64,000 nt of DNA, from contig JAHHIJ010000021.1 in NCBI GenBank assembly GCA_019358985.1, positions 1-64,000 of the forward strand, in the 5' to 3' direction. This stretch comes from Tolypothrix brevis GSE-NOS-MK-07-07A (GTDB lineage Bacteria > Cyanobacteriota > Cyanobacteriia > Cyanobacteriales > Nostocaceae). Shown one piece after another: positions 12,627 through 52,558 of the stretch (the first letter of the stretch is position 1; each line of letters opens with the position of its first letter). The notes below the pieces were generated by a model, which made no database searches, was not told the origin of the DNA, and worked only from the letters and a program-made list of their open reading frames with translations. A program made the position numbers and the translations under genes.

Positions 12627-12650
12627 AGTAAACAGGAATTATGATTAATA

Positions 12651-12979
12651 TATTAGGTGCGATCGCATGGAGTCGAATTATGCGATATATTAGGCGCGAT
12701 CGCATGGAGTCGAATTATGCGATATATTAGGTGCGATCGCATGGAGTCGAATTATGCGATATATTAGGCGCGATCGCATGGAGTGGAATTATGCGATATA
12801 TTAGGTGCGATCGCGTGGAGTCGAATTATGCGATATATTAGGCGCGATCGCATTGAATAGAATTATGCGATTAGGCGCGATCGCCTGGAGTCGAATGATG
12901 CGACATATTATGTGCGATCGCCTGGAGTGGAATTATGCGATATATGATGTGCGATCGCGTGGAGTCGAATTATGCGATC
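12651..12979 (+). repeat. 37-bp tandem repeat, about nine copies, each with HIP1
   Basis: Units of 37 bp start at 12651, 12688, 12725, 12762, 12799 and 12836, followed by three more with small deletions. Each begins tattaggygcgatcgc, continues with the variable tggagtcgaattatgcgata and abuts the next without any spacer. Size and HIP1 content resemble the long tandemly repeated repetitive (LTRR) sequences described in Anabaena. The absence of spacers argues against CRISPR. Open frames through it are artefacts of the periodicity. Confidence 0.9.
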
Positions 12980-14944: not shown

Positions 14945-15463
14945 TTAATTTTTAGCTATTGCAGCATCGAGGACTTTGGTGTAGTCGGCTTTGTTAGGAT
15001 TATTTTTAAACATGGTTAAAATATTGCCAGTTGCCGGATCAACAATAGCTACTGTGCTAGTTTTACTCTTATTAGCCTCCAGAAATTTACCTAAACCCAG
15101 TTTTTCAGCTTGAGCTTGTGTCTCTTGAACCTTGGCTTTATCGGTGACATCTAAAACCACAAAATTCACCTTACCGGAATATTCTTGTTTCAATTGCGAC
15201 AAGGTGGAAGCAATATTTTTACAACCAGCACACCAGGTAGCATATACATCTACTAAAACTGGTTTACCCTGAAGTTCTTTGGCTAGGGGCGCTCCGACGG
15301 AAGTTAATTTTCCTGCAAGAGGATCAGCTTGAGTAACTTCTGTAGTCGATGGTGTAGCTTGATTTTGGGAAATATTATCTGATTTTGTGGTGCTGCATGA
15401 TACGGTCAAAACTAAGCTACTTAAACACAGTAGACTGAGTAAAAATTTGCTATTTTTGAACAT
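14945..15463 (-). CDS. thioredoxin-like lipoprotein
   Basis: 172 residues. The signal peptide ends in a lipobox-like LVLTVSCS (Cys about 24), so it is probably a lipoprotein facing the periplasm or lumen. The thioredoxin active site is VYATWCAGCKNI (CAGC) near residue 78. It likely works with the CcdA-like protein encoded next. A second thioredoxin (17515) is a close paralogue with CASC and no lipobox. The DNA upstream of both genes is also related, so gene plus promoter region were duplicated. Confidence 0.88.
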   Translation of the reverse strand: MFKNSKFLLSLLCLSSLVLTVSCSTTKSDNISQNQATPSTTEVTQADPLAGKLTSVGAPLAKELQGKPVLVDVYATWCAGCKNIASTLSQLKQEYSGKVNFVVLDVTDKAKVQETQAQAEKLGLGKFLEANKSKTSTVAIVDPATGNILTMFKNNPNKADYTKVLDAAIAKN

Positions 15464-15592
15464 GATTGCTTTTTATCCTCAAGGTTGTATGGCAAAATGT
15501 TTTTCCGAGATAACTCGAATTGCATCTATATTACTAAGACGACCAAGGAACGGGATTGGATTTAATTCAACGAAAATTCCGTTGAACCAACC

Positions 15593-15793
15593 AAATAGGG
15601 GGTTTATACGGAATTGTTCTTTTGAATAACCCTACAGGGGATTTATACGGACTTGTTCTGTATAATCCACTTAAAAAGGTAGTTTATAAGGAAAGATTCG
15701 GTATAATACTGCAATTGGGGGAGTTAAACAGAATAGTTCGGTATAAGTACCTTGTTGAAGGGGATTATATGGAGACATTCGGTATAATAAATA
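15593..15793. repeat. array 1 of about 40-bp imperfect palindromes
   Basis: Five degenerate units in a row. The core reads ttatacggaattgttc, ttatacggacttgttctgta, ttataaggaaagattcggta, ttaaacagaatagttcggta, ttatatggagacattcggta, each followed by taat or a variant. Each unit is roughly palindromic around NGGAA-N3-TTCNG. The last unit runs straight into the core site gttagac at 15794 that opens the methyltransferase cassette. Arrays of the same design lie at 18218, 51050 and in short form at 42408. Function unknown: integrase or regulator binding array are possibilities. Confidence 0.7.
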
Positions 15794-15800
15794 GTTAGAC
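15794..15800 (+). other. integron-type core site GTTAGAC opening a cassette
   Basis: Fits the consensus GTTRRRY. Its exact complement GTCTAAC opens the attC-like site at 16602, as expected for the two ends of one circularisable cassette. It lies 40 bp before the methyltransferase start codon. Confidence 0.6.
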
Positions 15801-15839: not shown

Positions 15840-16592
15840 ATGAGTACAGACACTCAAACTGAGTACGTTGCCGCTTTGACTGATTTACACCGTGGACTTG
15901 ACCGTAAAGGGCCAGGTGACTCTGACTTCTCGCGCAATATTTTGAGCAATCTTTCTACTTTGCCGCTCAAGCCGCGAATTGCCGATCTAGGATGTGGAAG
16001 CGGTGCTAGTGCATTGCTGCTTGCACAACACTACCAAAGCACTGTCATGGCAGTAGATTCCTCGTCGGTTTTTATCGACGAACTCAAAGTTCGCGCAAAA
16101 CAGCTTGGTCTTGAGCATTTAATCATTCCAATTCATGGTGACATGGCTAAGCTCGATTGGTCAGTGGGTTCGGTTGACCTGCTTTGGTCTGAGGGGGCTG
16201 CTTATAATCTTGGGTTTGAGCAGGCTCTTAAAATCTGGCGACCGCTTCTTGCCAACAGCGGCATTGCCGTCATATCAGAGATGAGTTGGTTTACTGATAA
16301 TGTGCCAGAGCCTGCGATCGCGTTTTGGCAAAATGCCTATCCGATGATGGGTACCGAGGCTGAGAATATCGATCGAGCTAATAGGTCTGGCTTTAGCGTA
16401 CTTTCTACGCATCGGCTGCCAAGTCAGGTTTGGTGGGTCAATTATTATGAACCGCTCCGTAAGCGGATGCAGCAGATCGAAATCATCCCAAGTACTCAAT
16501 CAGTTATTCGTGAAACTGAAGAAGAGATGAGACTGTTTGAAAAATTCAGCGACTCTTATGGTTATACATTCTATATTCTGCAAGCAGCTTAG
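15840..16592 (+). CDS. class I SAM-dependent methyltransferase (gene cassette)
   Basis: About 250 residues. The SAM-binding motif I is IADLGCGSGASALLLA near residue 47, followed by an acidic residue in MAVDSSS and the VDLLWSEGAAYNLGF motif IV region near residue 110. Substrate not predictable; small-molecule methylation is likely. The ATG at 15840 is preferred over the upstream TTG/GTG-type start because the family N-terminus begins there. The gene sits alone between a GTTAGAC core and an attC-like site starting 10 bp after its stop, which is the layout of an integron gene cassette. Confidence 0.85.
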   Translation: MSTDTQTEYVAALTDLHRGLDRKGPGDSDFSRNILSNLSTLPLKPRIADLGCGSGASALLLAQHYQSTVMAVDSSSVFIDELKVRAKQLGLEHLIIPIHGDMAKLDWSVGSVDLLWSEGAAYNLGFEQALKIWRPLLANSGIAVISEMSWFTDNVPEPAIAFWQNAYPMMGTEAENIDRANRSGFSVLSTHRLPSQVWWVNYYEPLRKRMQQIEIIPSTQSVIRETEEEMRLFEKFSDSYGYTFYILQAA

Positions 16593-16601
16593 AAAAAAGC
16601 C

Positions 16602-16690
16602 GTCTAACAACGCCCATGCACACCGACCGCCAAGAGTTCACTGGTTGCGAGGCAGATGTTATCTGCGGCGGGTGATGGGCAACGTTATGC
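16602..16690 (+). other. attC-like recombination site 1 (89 bp)
   Basis: Starts with core GTCTAAC and ends with GTTATGC. The arms aacgcccatgcacaccgacc and ggcgggtgatgggcaac fold back on each other (GCCCAT with ATGGGC, CCGCC with GGCGG) around a variable loop. Length and arm sequence are shared with the sites at 36771 and 52470. Confidence 0.7.
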
Positions 16691-17514: not shown

Positions 17515-18048
17515 CTACTTTTTCGCCACAGCAGCATCAAGGATTTTGGTGTAATCAGCCTTGTTAGAATTATTCTGATACAGGGATAAAATGTTACCAG
17601 TTGCCGGGTCAACAATCGCCACAGTGCTGGTTTTACCTTTGTTAGCTTCGAGAAATTTACCTAAGCCGAGTCTTTGGGCTGCTGCTTCTGTCTGTTTGAG
17701 CTTACCTTTATCAGTTACATCCAAGACAACAAAATTCACCTTACCAGAATATTCCTGTTTCAACTGCGATAGGGTAGGAGCAATATTTTTACAACTAGCG
17801 CACCAAGTAGCATATACATCCACCACCACTGGTTTACCCTGAAGTTCCTTAGCCAGAGGACCTCCCACAGATTTCACTTTACCTGCACAAGGATTTTTCC
17901 CAGCACAGGGATTCCCTTGAGCAATCTTGGTAATTGATGATTGAGCTTCAGTTGCAGAGATACTAGTTGAGGTTGTTGCAACTATAGATGCAGTCAAAAC
18001 TAGGCTGCTCAGACAAATTTTGAGTAAGAAATTCGCGTGTTTATGCAT
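17515..18048 (-). CDS. secreted thioredoxin-like protein, paralogue
   Basis: About 177 residues from the internal Met (MHKHANFLLKICLSSLVLTA), which begins a clear signal peptide; a longer open frame upstream is not needed. The active site is VYATWCASCKNI. Two GNPCAGKNPCAGK-type repeats after the signal peptide add two cysteines. It closely resembles the protein at 14945 but has no CcdA partner beside it. The region upstream carries array 2, as array 1 lies upstream of the paralogue. Confidence 0.85.
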   Translation of the reverse strand: MHKHANFLLKICLSSLVLTASIVATTSTSISATEAQSSITKIAQGNPCAGKNPCAGKVKSVGGPLAKELQGKPVVVDVYATWCASCKNIAPTLSQLKQEYSGKVNFVVLDVTDKGKLKQTEAAAQRLGLGKFLEANKGKTSTVAIVDPATGNILSLYQNNSNKADYTKILDAAVAKK

Positions 18049-18217
18049 AAAACCTGTCCTCAAGCTGAAAGTGTATAATGGCGGTATGCTTTCCACAAAA
18101 ATAGTCAATTGTGGTGCATCTATTTACTAAGACGGCTGAGGGGTGATATCGGATTTAATTAAATTCAAACTTTTTTCTTCGTGTTAAGTTTTGATAGTTA
18201 AGTATCTTTCGTTAATA

Positions 18218-18366
18218 CAGGATGATATTCGGAAACTTTCTGAATATTCAGGGTGAATGATACAGAAATTTTCCATATTTCTCTCCCCAAATGGGTGAAT
18301 ATATAGAAAAAGTATGGATATTGTCGAAAAAAGGGTGATATGTGGAAACTGTCAGTAGAACAAATA
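18218..18366. repeat. array 2 of imperfect palindromes
   Basis: Four units of about 38-40 bp. Cores: gatattcggaaactttctga with atattc, gatacagaaattttccatat, gaatatatagaaaaagtatg, gatatgtggaaactgtcagt. The first is nearly a perfect dyad. The last unit runs into gttatgc at 18367, a GTTRRRY-like core. Same layout as array 1 (15593) and array 3 (51050). Confidence 0.65.
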
Positions 18367-18422
18367 GTTATGCAACCTCGTTTGGTCGAGTAGGCAGCAA
18401 TTGAAAACGTACTCATCGCTGT

Positions 18423-29094: not shown

Positions 29095-29420
29095 GAAAGC
29101 GATCGCACCTCCATAACTCCCTCACAACGCGATCGCATAACTCCACAAACCCCTCAAATACTAAACGCGATCGCACTCCTCAAAACCCAACTGCGATCGC
29201 ACCTCCATAACTCCCTCACAACGCGATCGCACTTCCAAACCGACCGCTCAAAACAAAGCGCGATCGCACTCCCAAACAAATCCCTCAAACTAAAATGCGA
29301 TCGCACTCAAACCCCTCTGTCATTGCGAGGAGGAACGACGAAGCAATCGCAATATCTTCAATACCAACAAGTTTATGTGATTGCCACGCTCCACTTCGTT
29401 ACGCTCGCAATGACAGAAAA
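29095..29420. repeat. HIP1 cluster plus dispersed hairpin repeat
   Basis: At least eight GCGATCGC octamers within 220 bp, spaced by C/A-rich words such as acctccataactccctcaca (used twice). It is followed at 29318-29410 by cattgcgaggaggaacgacg, the inverted copy of 9930-10015. No gene. Confidence 0.85.
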
Positions 29421-35673: not shown

Positions 35674-35676
35674 TGC

Positions 35677-35761
35677 TATTGTTCCCGTTCACCCGCCGCC
35701 AGCAACTTTTCGGACTCACCGATTAGCTTAATTCGGTCGGTGTGCAACGGGGTTGTTAGGC
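35677..35761 (-). other. attC-like recombination site 2 (reverse orientation)
   Basis: On the minus strand it starts GCCTAAC with the arm aaccccgttgcacaccgacc and ends with ggcggcgggtgaacgggaac. The closing core is damaged (aacaatag instead of GTTRRRY). The arms are those of site 1. Its opening core complements GTTAGGC at the end of site 3, so the two delimit one cassette. Confidence 0.65.
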
Positions 35762-35818
35762 ATGATTTTTGTATATTATGTGAGATTTAGCCCTCCGTCT
35801 GAAATTATAATCTCTCCC

Positions 35819-36439
35819 TTGACACTCCCCGCGATAAATCGACGGGGATTCTTAGTTCATCGACGTGCCTTAAAATTGTCTATCCTTACGGCAATACTTA
35901 AACCTGATACCCGTTCAATAGAACAAAGTGTCGAGTCTAATTTAAACAACCCCAGTGGGCTTCATCTCCTTAAGCGTTAGAGAATTGTTTCTCTAGTTCC
36001 CGTATGCCCTACGGTACTTTGCACAATCAACAAATGTTTTGTTTACTGGTATAGATGCGCGTTGGCATCTTAGCTATGTTTATCGTGGTGTTTTCGCTAC
36101 CCACTATCCATTATTTTTTCCTAGCCAGTCGTTTTGGGGTTGGTTATCCATTTGTGCTAGCGGTTATTCTACCTGTGGCATAATTATATTGTACCCTCAA
36201 ACGTTCGTATATGTCTAGGGAAAAATCAATTAAAGTTAGACTATCTGAATATGAGCTTCAGCAGTTGAAACAAGAAGCTGAAAAACAAGGAATAGGAATG
36301 TCTGATTTTCTGAGAAAATACATCTCAAAGCTGCCCAAACCAGAAAACTTCACGGCAGTTAAAACTGCTTGAGTCGTTTTTCATCCCCTGTCTTAAGCAC
36401 GTAAGGCATTGCTACGCAATGCTTACTCAGGGGCTTTCA
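35819..36439 (-). mobile_element. IS200/IS605-like element B without transposase
   Basis: About 620 bp. One end ttgacactccccgcgataaa/tcgacggggattctt, the other a long hairpin between catcccctgtcttaagcacg and cttactcaggggctttc. Inside: a ribbon-helix-helix ORF and about 380 nt noncoding with the word gtatgccctacggtac, which is the reverse of the word in element A. No tnpA/tnpB. It is inserted in the 3' part of an SDR gene. Confidence 0.65.
36211..36372 (+). CDS. small ribbon-helix-helix protein of IS-like element B
   Basis: 53 residues: MSREKSIKVRLSEYELQQLK, then GIGMSDFLRKYISKL, an Arc/MobC-type ribbon-helix-helix. Same place in the element as the ORF in element A and the ORF beside TnpB. 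Role unknown; control of the element or of its RNA is possible. Confidence 0.65.
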   Translation: MSREKSIKVRLSEYELQQLKQEAEKQGIGMSDFLRKYISKLPKPENFTAVKTA

Positions 36440-36709
36440 AACTTCCCAGTCTTTCTTGTAAGATAGTGACTTGCAACAATCATAGAAGCTATCTGTGCGA
36501 TTTCTTCTGGTTGCGCTCCTCGTCCCATCGGAGATCGTTCTTCCCAGAGCTTTCGTGCTGCTGTCCAGTTCTTACTCATTGGAGTCTCAACCAAACCTGG
36601 TGCGATCGTCCTCGGCAAGTCGCTTTGCGATCGCCATCCCAATTCCAGATGTCGAACCAGTGACGAGAGCCACTCTCTTTTCGTTTCTAGACTCGCTCAC
36701 AACATTCAC
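36427..36709 (-). pseudogene. short-chain dehydrogenase (SDR), deleted and interrupted
   Basis: The start NEKRVALVTGSTSGIGMAIA (TGxxxGIG NAD(P) site) is followed after about 35 residues directly by the C-terminal part LVETPMSKNWTAARKLWEER and GAQPEEIAQIASMIVAS. The middle with the YxxxK catalytic site is gone. The end after SHYLT is cut by element B. In minus orientation the gene lies between attC-like sites 3 and 2, so it was once a cassette gene. Confidence 0.8.
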
Positions 36710-36770
36710 TTATAGATTTGGTTTCATTTAATCGAGTTGTCAGATCTAACGACATTATTAAAGTTGTTCT

Positions 36771-36859
36771 GCCTAACGTTGCCCATCACCCGCCGTAGAT
36801 CACCTTTGCATCATAACCAATAGACTCTCGGCGGTCGGCGTGCATAGGCGTTGTTATGT
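36771..36859 (-). other. attC-like recombination site 3 (89 bp, reverse orientation)
   Basis: Plus strand: GCCTAAC, gttgcccatcacccgccg ... cggcggtcggcgtgcatagg, GTTATGT. The arms pair (GCCCAT/GCAT-type, CGCCG with CGGCG), and length and arms match sites 1 and 5. On the minus strand its closing core is GTTAGGC, complement of the opening core of site 2. Confidence 0.7.
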
Positions 36860-41385: not shown

Positions 41386-42393
41386 ATGAAAGTAGCCAAT
41401 CTAGCCACACCAAAAATGAGAGCGATCGCCCAAAGTGAGTATGGTTCTCCCGATATGCTGAAACAGGTGGAAGTCGAGCGTCCGGTTGTGTCGGAGAATG
41501 GTGTGCTGGTGCGAGTTTGTGCGACTGCCATCCATGCAGGTGACTGGCATTTGATGCGAGGTACACCGTTTTTGATTCGCTTCATCTACGGAGGATTGCG
41601 AAAGCCTAAAATCAAAATCCTGGGTACTGATATGGCTGGGGAAGTAGCAGCAGTGGGTAAAAATGTCACCCTGTTCCAACCGGGAGATGGGGTGTTTGGA
41701 GATTTGTCGGGATGCGGTTTTGGAGCCTTTGCCGAATATGTCTGCGTTCCCGAACAAGCATTAGCCTTGAAACCTGTCAATTTGACCTTCGAGGAAGCTG
41801 CCACCGTTCCCGTCTCTGCCCTTGCTGCCCTCCAAGGGTTGCGGGATGTGGGGCAAATTCAGCTAGGGCAGAGGGTTTTGGTGAATGGGGCTGGTGGTGG
41901 CGTGGGTTCATTTGCCGTGCAGATTGCCAAGGTGTTGGGGGCTGAGGTGACTGCTGTATGCAGTGGGAGCAAAGTAGAAATTGTGCGAGCGATCGGTGCG
42001 GATCGGGTTTTTGCACGCAATGTGATTAAATCCCAACTAAATAAAAATTATTACGATGTGATACTCGATACCGCCGCCTACAATTCGATTTTTGACTATT
42101 TACCCTTATTAAAACCCCAAGGTCGCTATGTGTTGGTGGGTGGTTCCACTGCTCGCTTGTTTGGGGTAATGTTTTTCGGTGCAGGGATTTCCAAATTCAC
42201 CAATCGTCAGGTGAAGTGTTTGATTTCCCAGCCAAATCGGGAGGATTTAATCGTTTTGAAAGATTGGCTGGAAGCTGGTAAGATTCGTCCCTATATCGAT
42301 CGCAGTTATCCCTTGAGTGAAATTCCTGCGGCAATTCGGTATCTGGAGCAGGGTCAGGTAACAGGAAAAGTCGCCATTCGGGTTGTAGATTGA
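41386..42393 (+). CDS. NAD(P)-dependent quinone oxidoreductase/alcohol dehydrogenase (MDR)
   Basis: 335 residues, zinc-free MDR type. Substrate side start MRAIAQSEYGSPDMLKQVEV; nucleotide motif VLVNGAGGGVGSFAVQIAKV near residue 165; LDTAAYNSIFDYLPLLKPQG near 222. It reduces quinones or enones with NADPH. Controlled by the divergent TetR. Its last 60 bp and the following 100 bp are duplicated at 50965-51140. Confidence 0.9.
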   Translation: MKVANLATPKMRAIAQSEYGSPDMLKQVEVERPVVSENGVLVRVCATAIHAGDWHLMRGTPFLIRFIYGGLRKPKIKILGTDMAGEVAAVGKNVTLFQPGDGVFGDLSGCGFGAFAEYVCVPEQALALKPVNLTFEEAATVPVSALAALQGLRDVGQIQLGQRVLVNGAGGGVGSFAVQIAKVLGAEVTAVCSGSKVEIVRAIGADRVFARNVIKSQLNKNYYDVILDTAAYNSIFDYLPLLKPQGRYVLVGGSTARLFGVMFFGAGISKFTNRQVKCLISQPNREDLIVLKDWLEAGKIRPYIDRSYPLSEIPAAIRYLEQGQVTGKVAIRVVD

Positions 42394-42615
42394 TAGTAAT
42401 GTTCGGCGATGGTACGGAAATTTCCTGATGAAATTCTTTTAATGTCCTTATTTGGACGTTACATGAAAAATTTCTGGATATCCGCAATAAACAGAATGAA
42501 AAGATGGAGAAGGAGAAATGTCAGGAGGCTGGTTAGCTTATCCAATTCTCTCTGGATTAACAGTTTGCGACGTAGAAGCTAAAATATATTAAGCCTTATA
42601 CGTTAGGTGTTGCAT
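42394..42615. repeat. short palindrome array (array 4) after the oxidoreductase gene
   Basis: Two units of the array type seen at 51050: tacggaaatttcctgatgaa and ttacatgaaaaatttctgga. The segment 42298-42500 is nearly the same as 50965-51140. A GTTAGGT core-like word lies at 42602, but no attC arms with ACCTAAC were found downstream. Confidence 0.55.
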
Positions 42616-48391: not shown

Positions 48392-48479
48392 GGCTAACAA
48401 CGCCCATGCACACCGACCGCCGAAAAGTGATCGGTAGGATGCAGAGGTCATCTGGTGCCGCTGATTTGAGTCGTTATGT
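48392..48479 (+). other. attC-like recombination site 4 (88 bp)
   Basis: Opening core GGCTAAC, arm aacgcccatgcacaccgacc identical to site 1, closing core GTTATGT. The right arm is degenerate (gtgccgctgatttgagtc). It follows the nucleotidyltransferase gene directly. Confidence 0.62.
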
Positions 48480-48609
48480 CGCTCCAGCTAGCGGTAGGAA
48501 TGCGATCGCTTCCATAAGCCGTGTAATTGTGATTTCTTGGCTATTTTTTTGTCTCGCTATACTCAGAAAGGCTTGTACTACAGGCGGTAAGGGGATTGAT
48601 CGATGGGCA

Positions 48610-48696
48610 GATGTACTTCATAAAGGTAGAATCTGTTGTAGTTGATTTTTTGGGTGCCCCTCTTGACACTGACGCAGCGTGAGGCTCTTACGATGG
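48610..48696 (+). promoter_or_regulatory. MerR-type promoter in an 87-bp direct repeat, copy 1
   Basis: ttgaca at 48663 and tacgat at 48689 are 20 bp apart, too far for a normal promoter; the spacer holds the dyad tgacgcagcgtga (48670-48682). This is the design of MerR-controlled promoters. The 87-bp segment recurs at 50366-50451. Confidence 0.65.
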
Positions 48697-48709
48697 ATGC
48701 ATTCACAGA

Positions 48710-49168
48710 TTGAGATTGTCTCAGTATTTGCAGAATCTGGGTATGAAAGATATCGTTGTAGCTAACACAGAGAAGGAGTTATTACGAGATAAAGCCGTTC
48801 AGTATCGCAACTATGCAACACCTGATGCCACTATCATTTTATTGCGTGCATTCCATGAAGGACGAGGGCTTTCAGAATCTAGTCAAGCCTTGTTGCGGCG
48901 CTTGATGACAGAGACACCTACAGGTTTAAAGCGCATTAAAGGCATATTGCCTAAAGGAACAGTGGTCGTGCATAAAACTGGTACATCAAGTACTGTCGAT
49001 GTCGATGGGGTGGCGGCTGCAACCAATGATGTAGGACTCGTGACGTTGCCGAATGGAAACCATTTAGCGATCGCAGTTTTCGTATCCGATGCTAAAGCTG
49101 ATATGGCAACTCGTGAAGCAGCGATCGCAAAGATATCGAGAGCGGTGTGGGATGAATGGAGCAAATAA
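48710..49168 (+). pseudogene. class A beta-lactamase, C-terminal fragment
   Basis: 152 residues of the C-terminal half. The KTG motif is in VVVHKTGTSSTVDVDGVAAA near residue 83, and IVVANTEKELLRDKAVQYRN, SSQALLRRLMTETPTGLKRI and FVSDAKADMATREAAIAKIS fit the family. The catalytic SxxK and SDN segments are absent, so it cannot hydrolyse beta-lactams. It starts just after the MerR-type promoter repeat. Confidence 0.88.
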
Positions 49169-49399
49169 GCATAAAATAGAACTGTGATGAATTGGCAAGG
49201 ATGAATTGACAAGTGCGAGGCAGTTTGAAGCCGCTGTCGAACAATTGCAATGCACCGGAACAATTCAGTTTGGTCGGTTAGTCGCAAAAGTTACTGGTGT
49301 CTGGTGATTGGAACCGTTGGGCGGCTGTCGGTTGAATCAGATGTGTCGATAGACAAACCGCTCAATCAAAGCATATTCTTAATCTCAGGAGAATAAAAT

Positions 49400-49783
49400 A
49401 TGCCTTTCTACAACGGAATAGTGACAGGCAAACTTCTAGAGTCAAAAGAGTTTTACACGAAAAATTTGGGGTTTTCGGTCAAGTTTGAAAACGAGTGGTT
49501 CGTTCTGCTTGAGCGTGACGGACGCGAACTCGCTTTTATGCAGCCGAATTTGGAGTTTCAAAATCCGATATTTCGCGGTGAATATGGCGGCAAAGGGCTT
49601 TGGTTGACGGTTGAAGTCGCTGATGTCGAAGCTGAATATAAACGCATTCAAAACTTAGGCGTTCCTATCGTCGTCGAGCTTCGGCAGGAAGATTGGGGCG
49701 AAACGCATTTTTCGATTGCTGACCCGAACGGCATCGGCGTTGACTTTGTGAAATACAAAGTACCAGAATCAAAATCAAGCTAA
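49400..49783 (+). CDS. VOC family protein (glyoxalase/bleomycin-resistance fold)
   Basis: 127 residues: GIVTGKLLESKEFYTKNLGF at the start, ELAFMQPNLEFQNP, and the closing THFSIADPNGIGVDFVKY. A metal-binding or antibiotic-binding VOC protein. A purine-rich site aggag lies before the ATG. Convergent with the phosphatase gene, ends overlapping by 9 bp. Confidence 0.88.
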   Translation: MPFYNGIVTGKLLESKEFYTKNLGFSVKFENEWFVLLERDGRELAFMQPNLEFQNPIFRGEYGGKGLWLTVEVADVEAEYKRIQNLGVPIVVELRQEDWGETHFSIADPNGIGVDFVKYKVPESKSS

Positions 49784-50329
49784 CCTGCCTCTTAATCGAT
49801 TGCATTCATCCAGTAGCAGATCAAATTTTGCCGCAACTTTCCAGGGATTGCGTCCTTTGAACAGAGCGGCGATGATCGCTTCATGGGGATTTCTCCCAGT
49901 CTGCTGAACGGCTGAGATCGCTGCTGTCTTGGAGAGTCCTCGTCCAGCTACCAGCCAAGCGGCTAAAACATGCCCTGTGCGCCCAATGCCACCCGAACAA
50001 TGAACGACAACCCTCTCATTTTTCTGATTGGCAGTCGCTAAAAACGGTAGGATTTGATGAATCAGTAGATCAGGATCGGCAAAGTCGAAGTCCTCGATCG
50101 GTGCCCAGCATACCTGGTTAATTCCAAACACTTGTCGATAAACCTCAAGCAGATTGGAATAGCGATCGAGTTGAGATTCGGGAAGCAAACAGCAGACCTG
50201 CTTGATCTCTTGGCTCTGCATAAACTCAATCCACTTGTTGACTTGCTCGTTGCTGTATCCAGGGCGGGCAGAGCCAAACACAATGGATTCATTCTCTGAA
50301 GCGGCAGAAAATTTGTACATGGTGATCAT
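49775..50329 (-). CDS. dual-specificity/tyrosine phosphatase-like protein
   Basis: About 184 residues from MITMYKFSAASENESIVFGS. The CX5R active site is VVHCSGGIGRTGHVLAAWL near residue 115 with an Asp in WAPIEDFDFADPD as general acid. Such enzymes remove phosphate from Tyr/Ser or from small molecules. Cassette-type neighbour genes; a damaged attC-like arm lies just upstream at 50340. Confidence 0.87.
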   Translation of the reverse strand: MITMYKFSAASENESIVFGSARPGYSNEQVNKWIEFMQSQEIKQVCCLLPESQLDRYSNLLEVYRQVFGINQVCWAPIEDFDFADPDLLIHQILPFLATANQKNERVVVHCSGGIGRTGHVLAAWLVAGRGLSKTAAISAVQQTGRNPHEAIIAALFKGRNPWKVAAKFDLLLDECNRLRGRLA

Positions 50330-50339
50330 TTCAAATCGT

Positions 50340-50366
50340 TCCAATAAAGCCTATGCACACCGACTG
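50340..50366 (+). other. degenerate attC-like left arm
   Basis: caataaagcctatgcacacc/gactg matches the arm aacgcccatgcacaccgacc with three or four changes. No matching right arm before the promoter repeat that starts at 50366. Confidence 0.4.
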
Positions 50367-50451
50367 ATGTACTTCATAAAGGTAGAATCTATTGTAGTTG
50401 ATTTTTTGGTGCCCCTCTTGACACTGACGCAGCGTGAGCCTCTTCCGATGG
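50366..50451 (+). promoter_or_regulatory. MerR-type promoter, direct-repeat copy 2
   Basis: One base shorter than the copy at 48610 and otherwise nearly the same: ttgaca at 50418, dyad tgacgcagcgtga at 50425-50437. Here it precedes a WG-repeat fragment instead of the beta-lactamase. Confidence 0.62.
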
Positions 50452-50845
50452 CGGCAAATGGGGATATGCCAATCTCAACAATGAAATTGTTGTTCACCCC
50501 CAATATGACAGCGCTAGAGATTTTGCCGAAGGGTTAGCCTCCGTAAGGCTAAATGGTAGATCGGGGTTCATCGACAAAACTGGAAAAGTTGTTATCCCCC
50601 TTCAATTTTCTGAAACTTTCTCTTTTTCAGAAGGGCTTGCTTCAGCAAAACTAAATAGCAAGTGGGGGTATATCGACAAAACCGGTAAAGTGATTATTCC
50701 GTTTCAATTTACTGAAGCACTTGCTTTTTCAGAAGGGCTTACAGCAGCAGAACTGAACGGCAAGCTAGGGTTTATCGATAAAACTGGTAAGGTTGTCAGG
50801 GTAAACGCGTCCGGTGATTGCGAACGTTACCAATTTTCAAACTAA
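50438..50845 (+). pseudogene. WG-repeat protein, N-terminus missing
   Basis: An open frame without a start codon encodes DGGKWGYANLNNEIVVHPQY, then RSGFIDKTGKVVIPLQFSET, SKWGYIDKTGKVIIPFQFTE and KLGFIDKTGKVV: four WG beta-repeats. The frame begins after a TGA inside the promoter repeat, so the front was lost when the repeat was joined. The C-terminal end RVNASGDCERYQFSN is encoded by an attC-like closing sequence. Confidence 0.78.
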
Positions 50846-50929
50846 ATTACGATCGCCTCTGGCGCTCCGCGCGATCGCGTAGCGACATCCTCCTGGGTTT
50901 GGCTTTAATCCTGCAATAGTTTGTGGCAG

Positions 50930-50957
50930 GTGATGGGCAACGTTACGAATTTCAAAC
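50930..50957 (+). other. attC-like right arm only
   Basis: ggcaggtgatgggcaacgtt/acgaatttc matches the right arm of site 1 and is followed by the same atttcaaacta word that follows the core at 52552. The left arm is missing. Confidence 0.45.
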
Positions 50958-50964
50958 TACATGC

Positions 50965-51140
50965 GATCGCAGCTATCCCTTGAGTGAAATTCCTGCGGCA
51001 ATTCGGTATCTGGAGCAGGGTCAGGTAATGCGGATTGACAGTAATGTTCGGCGATATATGGTGCGGAAATTTCCTGATGAAATTCTTTTAATATCCTTAT
51101 TTGGATGTTACATGAAAAATTTCTGGATATCCGCAATAAA
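50965..51140 (+). repeat. second copy of the oxidoreductase 3' end
   Basis: Matches 42298-42500: first the codons for SYPLSEIPAAIRYLEQGQV, then a deletion of about 25 bp, then the shared untranslated part with two palindrome units. It is a gene end only. Confidence 0.8.
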
Positions 51141-51399
51141 CAGACTGAAAAGCTTATAATTACATGCAAAATCAGGTCGATATGCCGAATAATTCCGCCT
51201 ATTACCCGAAAAAGGAGAATAGCCAGAAAATTTCTTGATATCCACCTATATTTAGGTAGTTATCTGGAAAAATTCTGTATAATAAGTGGATATTGACGAT
51301 ATCAGGAAAAGTTCTTGATATTATGACTAAATTATCTGTAATGCTTGATTTTACTGGACTTATTTGGCTGATAGACGGAAAATTTCGGGTTAATAAATA
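51050..51399. repeat. array 3 of imperfect palindromes
   Basis: About seven units with cores such as tgcggaaatttcctgatgaa, catgaaaaatttctggatat, gccagaaaatttcttgatat, tatctggaaaaattctgtat, gatatcaggaaaagttcttg and agacggaaaatttcgggtta. The dyad centre is NGGAA-N3-TTCNG. The last unit is followed by aataaatagttatgt, that is, a GTTATGT core at 51400. Confidence 0.65.
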
Positions 51400-51406
51400 G
51401 TTATGT
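51400..51406 (+). other. integron-type core site GTTATGT opening the arr cassette
   Basis: Its exact complement ACATAAC opens the attC-like site at 52470. The same aataaatagtta context precedes the core at 15794. Confidence 0.6.
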
Positions 51407-51635
51407 GGCTTTGGTTGTCGGTGAGGGCGTACTGAGGAAGTATCTGCGGGTTGAGATATCTAAGTGGTCGTCAGTTCTTGATTGAAGCATGACTGGCAAG
51501 TTTTGATGGGCTGTGTTCATAGTTGAATCCGTCGCCAAGTTTTTTGTATGTTTCAATACTTAACAACTCACCACTTACTGTCTAGCGATTGTCTAGAATA
51601 CGGCGATATTAAGATAATTAGGAGACAAAACAATT

Positions 51636-52379
51636 ATGGAATTCAACCCAAGCAACAATGTTGTTAAACTTTGTCTTCAAGGTATGGGCATGGAAGAAAA
51701 AGGCAAACCTGAAGAAGCAAGTGAACTATTTCTTCAAGCCTGGAACGAAGCAACATACGACTTTGAAAAATTTATTTCAGCTCATTATGTAGCCCGACAT
51801 CAAAAAAATGTTTCCGATAAATTAAAATGGCTCGAAACGACTTTGCAGTTTGCATTAAAAATGAATGACGACTCTGTTAAGAGTGCTTTCCCTTCTCTAT
51901 ATTCAAACATTGCTAAATGCTATGAGGACTTAAGCGACCCTGACAAGGCAAAAAAGAATTATGAATTAGCAACTTCGTTTAAGGATAAACCTTCTGACAA
52001 AGGACCTTTTTATCATGGGACGAAAGCAGATTTGTCGATTGGCGATTTGCTGACAGCAGGGGGCAGTTCTAATTACAAATCTGAACTTAAAATGAACCAC
52101 ATTTATTTTACAGCCGTTGTTAATGGAGCGGGACTAGCTGCTGCATTAGCAAAAGGCGATGGACGGGAACGTGTCTATATCGTTGAACCGACAGGGGGTT
52201 TTGAAAATGACCCGAATGTTACAGACAAAAAATTTCCGGGCAATCCGACACGCTCATATCGCTCCCAAGCACCATTAAAAATCGTTGGCGAAGTAACAGA
52301 TTGGGTGAGACAAACACCTGAGGAACTCCAAAAATGGCGTGAAAAGTTGGTCAATAACAAAGGAGAAATTATTAATTAA
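51636..52379 (+). CDS. arr: rifampin ADP-ribosyltransferase (Arr) with N-terminal helical-repeat domain
   Basis: 247 residues. Residues 1-120 are TPR-like helices (KGKPEEASELFLQAWNEATY, LYSNIAKCYEDLSDPDKAKK). Residues 125-247 are an Arr domain: GPFYHGTKADLSIGDLLTAG, MNHIYFTAVVNGAGLAAALA, ERVYIVEPTGGFENDPNVTD, GNPTRSYRSQAPLKIVGEV. Arr uses NAD to ADP-ribosylate rifampin; arr genes are known integron cassette genes. Single gene between GTTATGT (51400) and attC-like site 5 (52470). It looks intact. Confidence 0.9.
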   Translation: MEFNPSNNVVKLCLQGMGMEEKGKPEEASELFLQAWNEATYDFEKFISAHYVARHQKNVSDKLKWLETTLQFALKMNDDSVKSAFPSLYSNIAKCYEDLSDPDKAKKNYELATSFKDKPSDKGPFYHGTKADLSIGDLLTAGGSSNYKSELKMNHIYFTAVVNGAGLAAALAKGDGRERVYIVEPTGGFENDPNVTDKKFPGNPTRSYRSQAPLKIVGEVTDWVRQTPEELQKWREKLVNNKGEIIN

Positions 52380-52469
52380 AGCCATCAGATCTCGATTAGT
52401 TGCTCGAAAGATGGTTTAGTTGTGGGAGAGTTATAACTACCTAGTGATTTCAATGACCTCACGATCGCC

Positions 52470-52558
52470 ACATAACAATCCGCCTGCACACCGACCGTAT
52501 AGAGTTAGTTGGTTGAGTCAGAGAGGTTACTAGCGGCGGGTGAAGCGGGTCGTTACCA
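52470..52558 (+). other. attC-like recombination site 5 (89 bp)
   Basis: Opening core ACATAAC, left arm aatccgcctgcacaccgacc, right arm ggcgggtgaagcgggtc, closing core GTTACCA. CCGCC pairs with GGCGG, TAAC with GTTA. It is 91 bp after the arr stop codon. Confidence 0.7.

Follow-up and report, generated by a model that had tools for sequence, protein, structure and literature searches.

A tandem array of paired-box units in Tolypothrix brevis, very probably an attI site without an adjacent integrase gene

The attI1 site of class 1 integrons is arranged as DR2-DR1-L-R over 65 bp, and its two direct repeats stand 19 bp apart. Four attI1 regions, DR1 and DR2 among them, are reported to be bound by IntI1 (PMC12901181). 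The attI1 direct repeats are reported to favour attI1 x attC recombination and are proposed to act as topological filters, and the attIA of Vibrio cholerae, which like the site proposed here is the attI of a chromosomal integron, is described as being without repeats of this kind (PMC8946536). The role of such extra integrase sites, two repeats in attI1 and none in Vibrio cholerae, is a question that matters. Clusters of attC sites lacking an IntI are called CALIN (PMC9668308), and cyanobacterial integrons and their attC sites are already published (PMC9668308, PMC8352920, PMC2426708). No description of cyanobacterial attI arrays or attI structure was found in the literature searched, whose coverage of subscription journals was thin. 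What is new here is the tandem-box layout of attI and the abundance of orphan attI sites.

The window is the whole stretch of DNA analysed, 64,000 nucleotides at positions 1 to 64,000 of contig C39 in a 6.5 Mb genome of 74 contigs (G000). Array 1, the tandem units of the proposed attI, lies on its plus strand at 15572..15793 and was delimited from a unit matrix, the repeat lag and identity to the array of locus L084. The unit matrix was trained on intI-linked arrays from six other genomes. It placed unit starts at 15603, 15642, 15683, 15723 and 15764 with scores of 17.5-29.3, giving five clear units of ~40 bp that span 15603-15788 at spacings of 39, 41, 40 and 41 bp, and a direct-repeat search of the window recovered the same family with spacings of 39, 41 and 40. 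At a score of at least 17 the plus strand of the window held 11 matrix matches, 5 of them within array 1; over 100 dinucleotide shuffles of the window such matches averaged 0.06 and never exceeded 2. The best internal repeat lag was 41 bp (p=0.002, 500 shuffles), and the five tandem units of about 40 bp in the original prediction are therefore there. A chance array or a simple tandem repeat was ruled out by these shuffle controls, and no Rfam family reached its gathering score.

The units run up to AATAAATAGTTAGAC, and the terminus of the array reads AATAAATA-GTTAGAC. The terminal unit has as its right arm an L box, GTATAAT (15782..15788, plus strand), spaced as in the attI1 of locus L262. It is followed by a 5-nt spacer, AAATA (15789-15793, plus strand), and by the R box GTTAGAC (15794..15800, plus strand), which is of the GTTRRRY type and which the conservation pattern of alignment A1 marks as the presumed crossover point and cassette start. 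The array had been predicted to end at a recombination core, and it does so, with GTT at 15794. It had also been predicted to begin at 15593; the right end held, while the left edge lies nearer 15572, because the likeness to the L084 array, which adjoins an intI remnant (87.6% identity over 234 nt), begins at about 15572 and stops just beyond the core, and because a degenerate sixth unit can be seen by eye at about 15572-15590. The dyad claimed for each unit was found at the level of the family, whose consensus GTTATACGGAAAAATTCCGTATAAT is visibly palindromic, but not in array 1 alone, where the near-palindrome count was no better than in shuffles (p=0.53).

Behind the core lies a cassette ORF for a SAM methyltransferase (Methyltransf_25, by domain match) at 15840..16592 on the plus strand, whose start the ORF lister sets at TTG 15813. 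Its attC site, at 16602..16690 in the same direction, was matched by covariance model R2 and is itself one of the 18 R2 seeds. The first box of this attC, GTCTAAC, is the complement of the array 1 R box GTTAGAC, which is the match to be expected of a cassette inserted at that R box.

Array 1 and attI1 (L262; plasmid record LC746223) have in common a GTTA-type box, an L box, a 5-nt spacer and an R box, and attI1 shares with the intact cyanobacterial arrays the position of a GTTRRRY site beside a divergent intI. The cyanobacterial arrays differ from attI1 in carrying paired inverted boxes about every 40 bp. Array 1, with five paired-box units about 40 bp apart, lacks the DR1-DR2 pair that attI1 packs into about 65 bp. 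Intact loci of the family and the window arrays have 4 to 6 detected units, and other clades have fewer or more by eye. Several box pairs, near-fixed spacing and many natural truncations at the cyanobacterial sites make an accessory-site role testable by the number and phase of the units.

Relatives of array 1 were found beside integrase genes. Ten of the 217 genomes of the family have an integron integrase above the curated cut-off. Where a family locus is intact (L073, L074, L075, L078, L079), a divergent intI stands on one side of the array and the core on the other, at 166-337 bp from intI, an arrangement shared by many loci of the order. The R box of L078 is TTTTTTC. From 40 intI loci of family and order, 30 regions were scored, after four loci without an N-terminal match, five without a core and L178, removed by hand as 51% identical and without a recognisable array, had been set aside. 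The best repeat lag was 39-42 bp in 29 of these 30 regions and reached p<0.05 in 24; the value for L084 rests on a shortened region. The scored regions include integrases down to 57% identical to the IntI of L073, and their unit sequence varies. L077, whose intI is 63% identical, L167 and L178 have intI and no recognisable array or core. In a set of named genomes, which may overlap those of the family and order, 73 of 80 loci were scored (6 excluded by hand, 1 for short upstream sequence), and a lag of 39-42 bp at p<0.05 was found in 9 of 11 cyanobacterial intI gaps and in 2 of 62 others. Two non-cyanobacterial MAGs (L229, L232) show a significant 40-bp lag and have intI with upstream 40-bp tandem units of another sequence, seen also by eye, and these arrays are either convergent or misbinned.

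Array 1 is very probably an attI, the place where a cyanobacterial chromosomal integron takes in cassettes, here without an adjacent integrase gene. What is observed in favour of this is the anatomy of the site with its L-5-R core, the adjacency of intI at homologous arrays (30 scorable of 40 intI loci), the downstream cassettes with attC sites in one direction, the change of sequence at GTT, and the way units and core vary together from one IntI clade to the next. The attI-like reading had been one of two offered in the original prediction, and it has gained from each of these. As no intI lies in cis, the locus is not a complete integron.

Each ~40-bp unit consists of two core-type boxes facing outward, GTTATAC-like on the left and GTATAAT-like on the right, 11 nt apart, and in the last unit the right-hand one doubles as L box of the core (L-AAATA-R). 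It is probable that these units are boxes to which IntI would bind. In the mechanism we propose, IntI would load on the row of boxes, the loaded IntI would mark the double-stranded attI as the site with which a folded single-stranded attC is to pair up, and IntI would then drive cassette insertion at G|TT of the R box. The units may have a role in the efficiency or direction of insertion, and array 1 may still be usable with an integrase from elsewhere.

Two further arrays of this kind lie in the window. Array 2, an orphan attI recognised with the unit matrix, is at 51058..51394 on the plus strand, with units 293, 221, 182, 141, 102 and 30 before GTT and a best repeat lag of 39 bp (p=0.01). 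Its R box GTTATGT (51400..51406, plus strand) precedes a cassette ORF for an Arr-type ADP-ribosyltransferase with sub-threshold TPR matches (51636..52379, plus strand). The attC of that cassette (52470..52558, plus strand), an R2 seed, has the first box ACATAAC, the complement of the array 2 R box. Array 3, a weaker orphan attI, is at 18224..18361 on the plus strand, with four units at offsets 143, 110, 69 and 30 before GTT. It matched covariance model R1, of which it is one of the 30 seeds, at E 3.8e-7, and its repeat lag of 43 bp was not significant (p=0.16). Its R box is GTTATGC (18367..18373, plus strand), and the R2 and R-box searches found no attC to match it. A broken fourth array at 42409..42503 (plus strand) is 96% identical to 51058-51152.

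Some of these copies sit in duplicated DNA. Two thioredoxin-like ORFs on the minus strand (14945-15463 and 17515-18108) are 81% identical over 300 nt, and each sits just upstream of an attI array (arrays 1 and 3). By sequence, the thioredoxin gene together with its attI looks like a segmental duplication, and since arrays 1 and 3 adjoin the two paralogues, part of the spread of attI would be by duplication. A zinc-type alcohol dehydrogenase ORF likewise has its 3' end duplicated, together with the start of an attI array, between 42297-42503 and 50964-51152, about 8.65 kb apart and at 96-98% identity.

In the whole genome R2 found 9 attC sites at E<=0.01, and 6 of them are in the window, including 2 seeds. 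Four attC sites have no visible adjacent attI array, at 35674-35761 and 36771-36859 on the minus strand and at 48392-48479 and 49236-49322 on the plus strand, and these are CALIN-like. The window resembles a CALIN in having cassette attC sites without intI, at 48392-52558 and 35674-36859. It differs in that the attI sites themselves persist, which is outside the scope of the term.

The terminal unit is common in the family. A pattern of the last unit and core, allowing up to one mismatch, matched 352 times in 146 of the 217 genomes, and a reversed control pattern matched 84 times in 66, so single pattern matches can be chance. R1, which is stricter than the pattern, was built from 27 loci of the pattern search and the 3 window sites and gave 507 matches at E<=1e-3 in 152 of the 217 genomes. 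This is an upper figure, because a few matches are internal units, as noticed in G000 at a looser cut-off, and because R1 was built from its own loci. Alignment A1, of 30 sites (L026, L029 and L032 of the 30 pattern-search loci were omitted), is conserved through GTTA and variable beyond. The loci taken up from the pattern and R1 searches come from among the matches listed, and the 60 fetched R1 regions are near the top of the R1 ranking, some top regions having been skipped as already fetched or near a contig end, so the sample is biased towards well-preserved sites.

At 61 family sites, with nearly equal lengths searched up- and downstream, R2 found 40 attC matches downstream on the same strand, 7 upstream on the same strand and none in the opposite orientation. 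Since 12 of the 18 R2 seeds had themselves come from downstream of some of these 61 sites, the figure of 40 is in part a product of how the model was made. Without the seeds and one seed twin there were 27 matches downstream, 6 upstream and none opposite, at 23 of the 61 sites. In a separate comparison, the complement of a site's own R box with a hairpin was found downstream of 25 of 73 sites and upstream of 3; 200 permutations of the R boxes gave a mean of 6.1 sites and a maximum of 13. A strict RYYYAAC..GTTRRRY scan overlooked obvious attC sites, and a folding scan also overlooked obvious sites and yielded no more than shuffles; the attC results rest on R2 and the R-box permutation test. The original prediction expected profile matches to end at GTTRRRY ahead of cassettes, which occurred above control, though not throughout: 31 of the 61 family sites, about half, had no R2 attC match within 4 kb downstream.

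Most family sites stand apart from an integrase gene. No trace of intI at E<=1e-3 was found within 4 kb upstream of arrays 1, 2 or 3, and the three are therefore called orphans. In G000 no TIGR02249 match exceeded the cut-off, and none of the four weak matches, the best at E 2.8e-7, is on contig C39. Among the 61 family sites a trace of intI lies within 4 kb upstream of 13; of the 48 without a trace, 45 had at least 1 kb of upstream sequence examined and 3 had under 1 kb. Trace-free sites retain 1 to 5 detected units, and in L106, L108 and L121 the arrays lead directly into intI fragments, which together fit the loss of intI by deletion at orphan sites.

With no intI near the arrays and none over the cut-off in the genome, array 1 may be dead. 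We give about even chances to the possibility that the window copies are relics, attI sites left unused after the loss of intI, which is compatible with an attI origin. The scarcity of intI traces, the units kept at sites without one, and the arrays that abut intI fragments are all in favour of this. Against it, array 2 has a copy on contig C41 that agrees with it at 94.8% over 250 nt, yet the R boxes and cassettes of the two differ. The two copies diverge at the R box, and their likeness is gone within about 20 nt past GTT, so exchange of cassettes may be fairly recent. An integrase acting in trans from a plasmid is also possible, as plasmid pB of Kovacikia minuta carries both intI and an array of this kind (lag 40 bp, p=0.004). 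The ten genomes with an integrase over the cut-off have 6.1 R1 terminal-unit matches on average and the other 207 have 2.2, a comparison that ignores kinship. A rather doubtful extension of the attI reading is a dispersed integron, in which many attI platforms, each made of IntI box pairs arrayed at ~40 bp, would be served in trans by one chromosomal or plasmid integrase. If this were true, cassettes could be captured at several loci.

The arrays might instead be multi-site operators or promoter clusters, with intI and the first cassette under the control of a regulator, or of RNA polymerase acting at TATAAT-like boxes. The units do occupy the gap between intI and the cassettes, where promoters are expected, and GTATAAT, which resembles a -10 box, closes many of the units in the window's family. 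Across the 16 IntI clades, however, the L-box position, at the terminal right arm, ends in AAT in 15 and reads TATAAT in 3, so the promoter likeness is not conserved as it would be in a sigma-70 promoter array. That right arm is also the L box of the core, and units co-vary with the core: in all 16 of the 16 clades, upstream units resemble their own terminal unit more than the mean foreign unit (permutation p 5e-5). The own terminal unit outscored every other one in only 4 of the 16, and GGAA..TTCC-like units are common to many clades. The near-palindrome count was significant (p<=0.05) for 4 of the 16 clades and for one of the three window arrays; in clades L162 and L169 the 40-bp lag is present and near-palindromes are absent at the threshold used. 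An operator is unneeded to explain the array and is improbable as its main function; bound IntI may regulate.

That the array is a separate MITE-like mobile repeat inserted before cassettes is very hard to credit: the R1 matches are many and the window copies adjoin unrelated genes (thioredoxin, alcohol dehydrogenase), but the right end is fixed at GTT while the left end differs between sites, intact copies abut intI, and the thioredoxin- and dehydrogenase-side copies sit within duplicated stretches.

Under the attI reading, the array sequence is a marker for cassette platforms at which no integrase remains, including that on pSYSM of the model Synechocystis PCC 6803. A well-preserved terminal attI unit and core lies on this plasmid at about 79078-79113 (about 3497-3536 of L263), upstream of an alpha/beta hydrolase gene, and no matching attC was found in the downstream stretch examined. 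Arrays or terminal units are also carried on plasmids of Nostoc sp. C052 and Fischerella sp. NIES-4106.

Several other repeats and arrangements were seen. L113 (G074) and L086 (G029) each have a pair of attI arrays that face the same way at a distance of about 2-2.7 kb, and in L113 two attC matches lie between them. Tandem repeats of about 30-37 bp rich in GCGATCGC, known as HIP1, lie in the window at 12648-12978 and 29099-29308; they are unlike the attI arrays and were set aside as separate from them. A 102-bp tandem repeat at 50563-50796, with other cassette DNA on one side and array 2 on the other, lies within sequence that looks coding.
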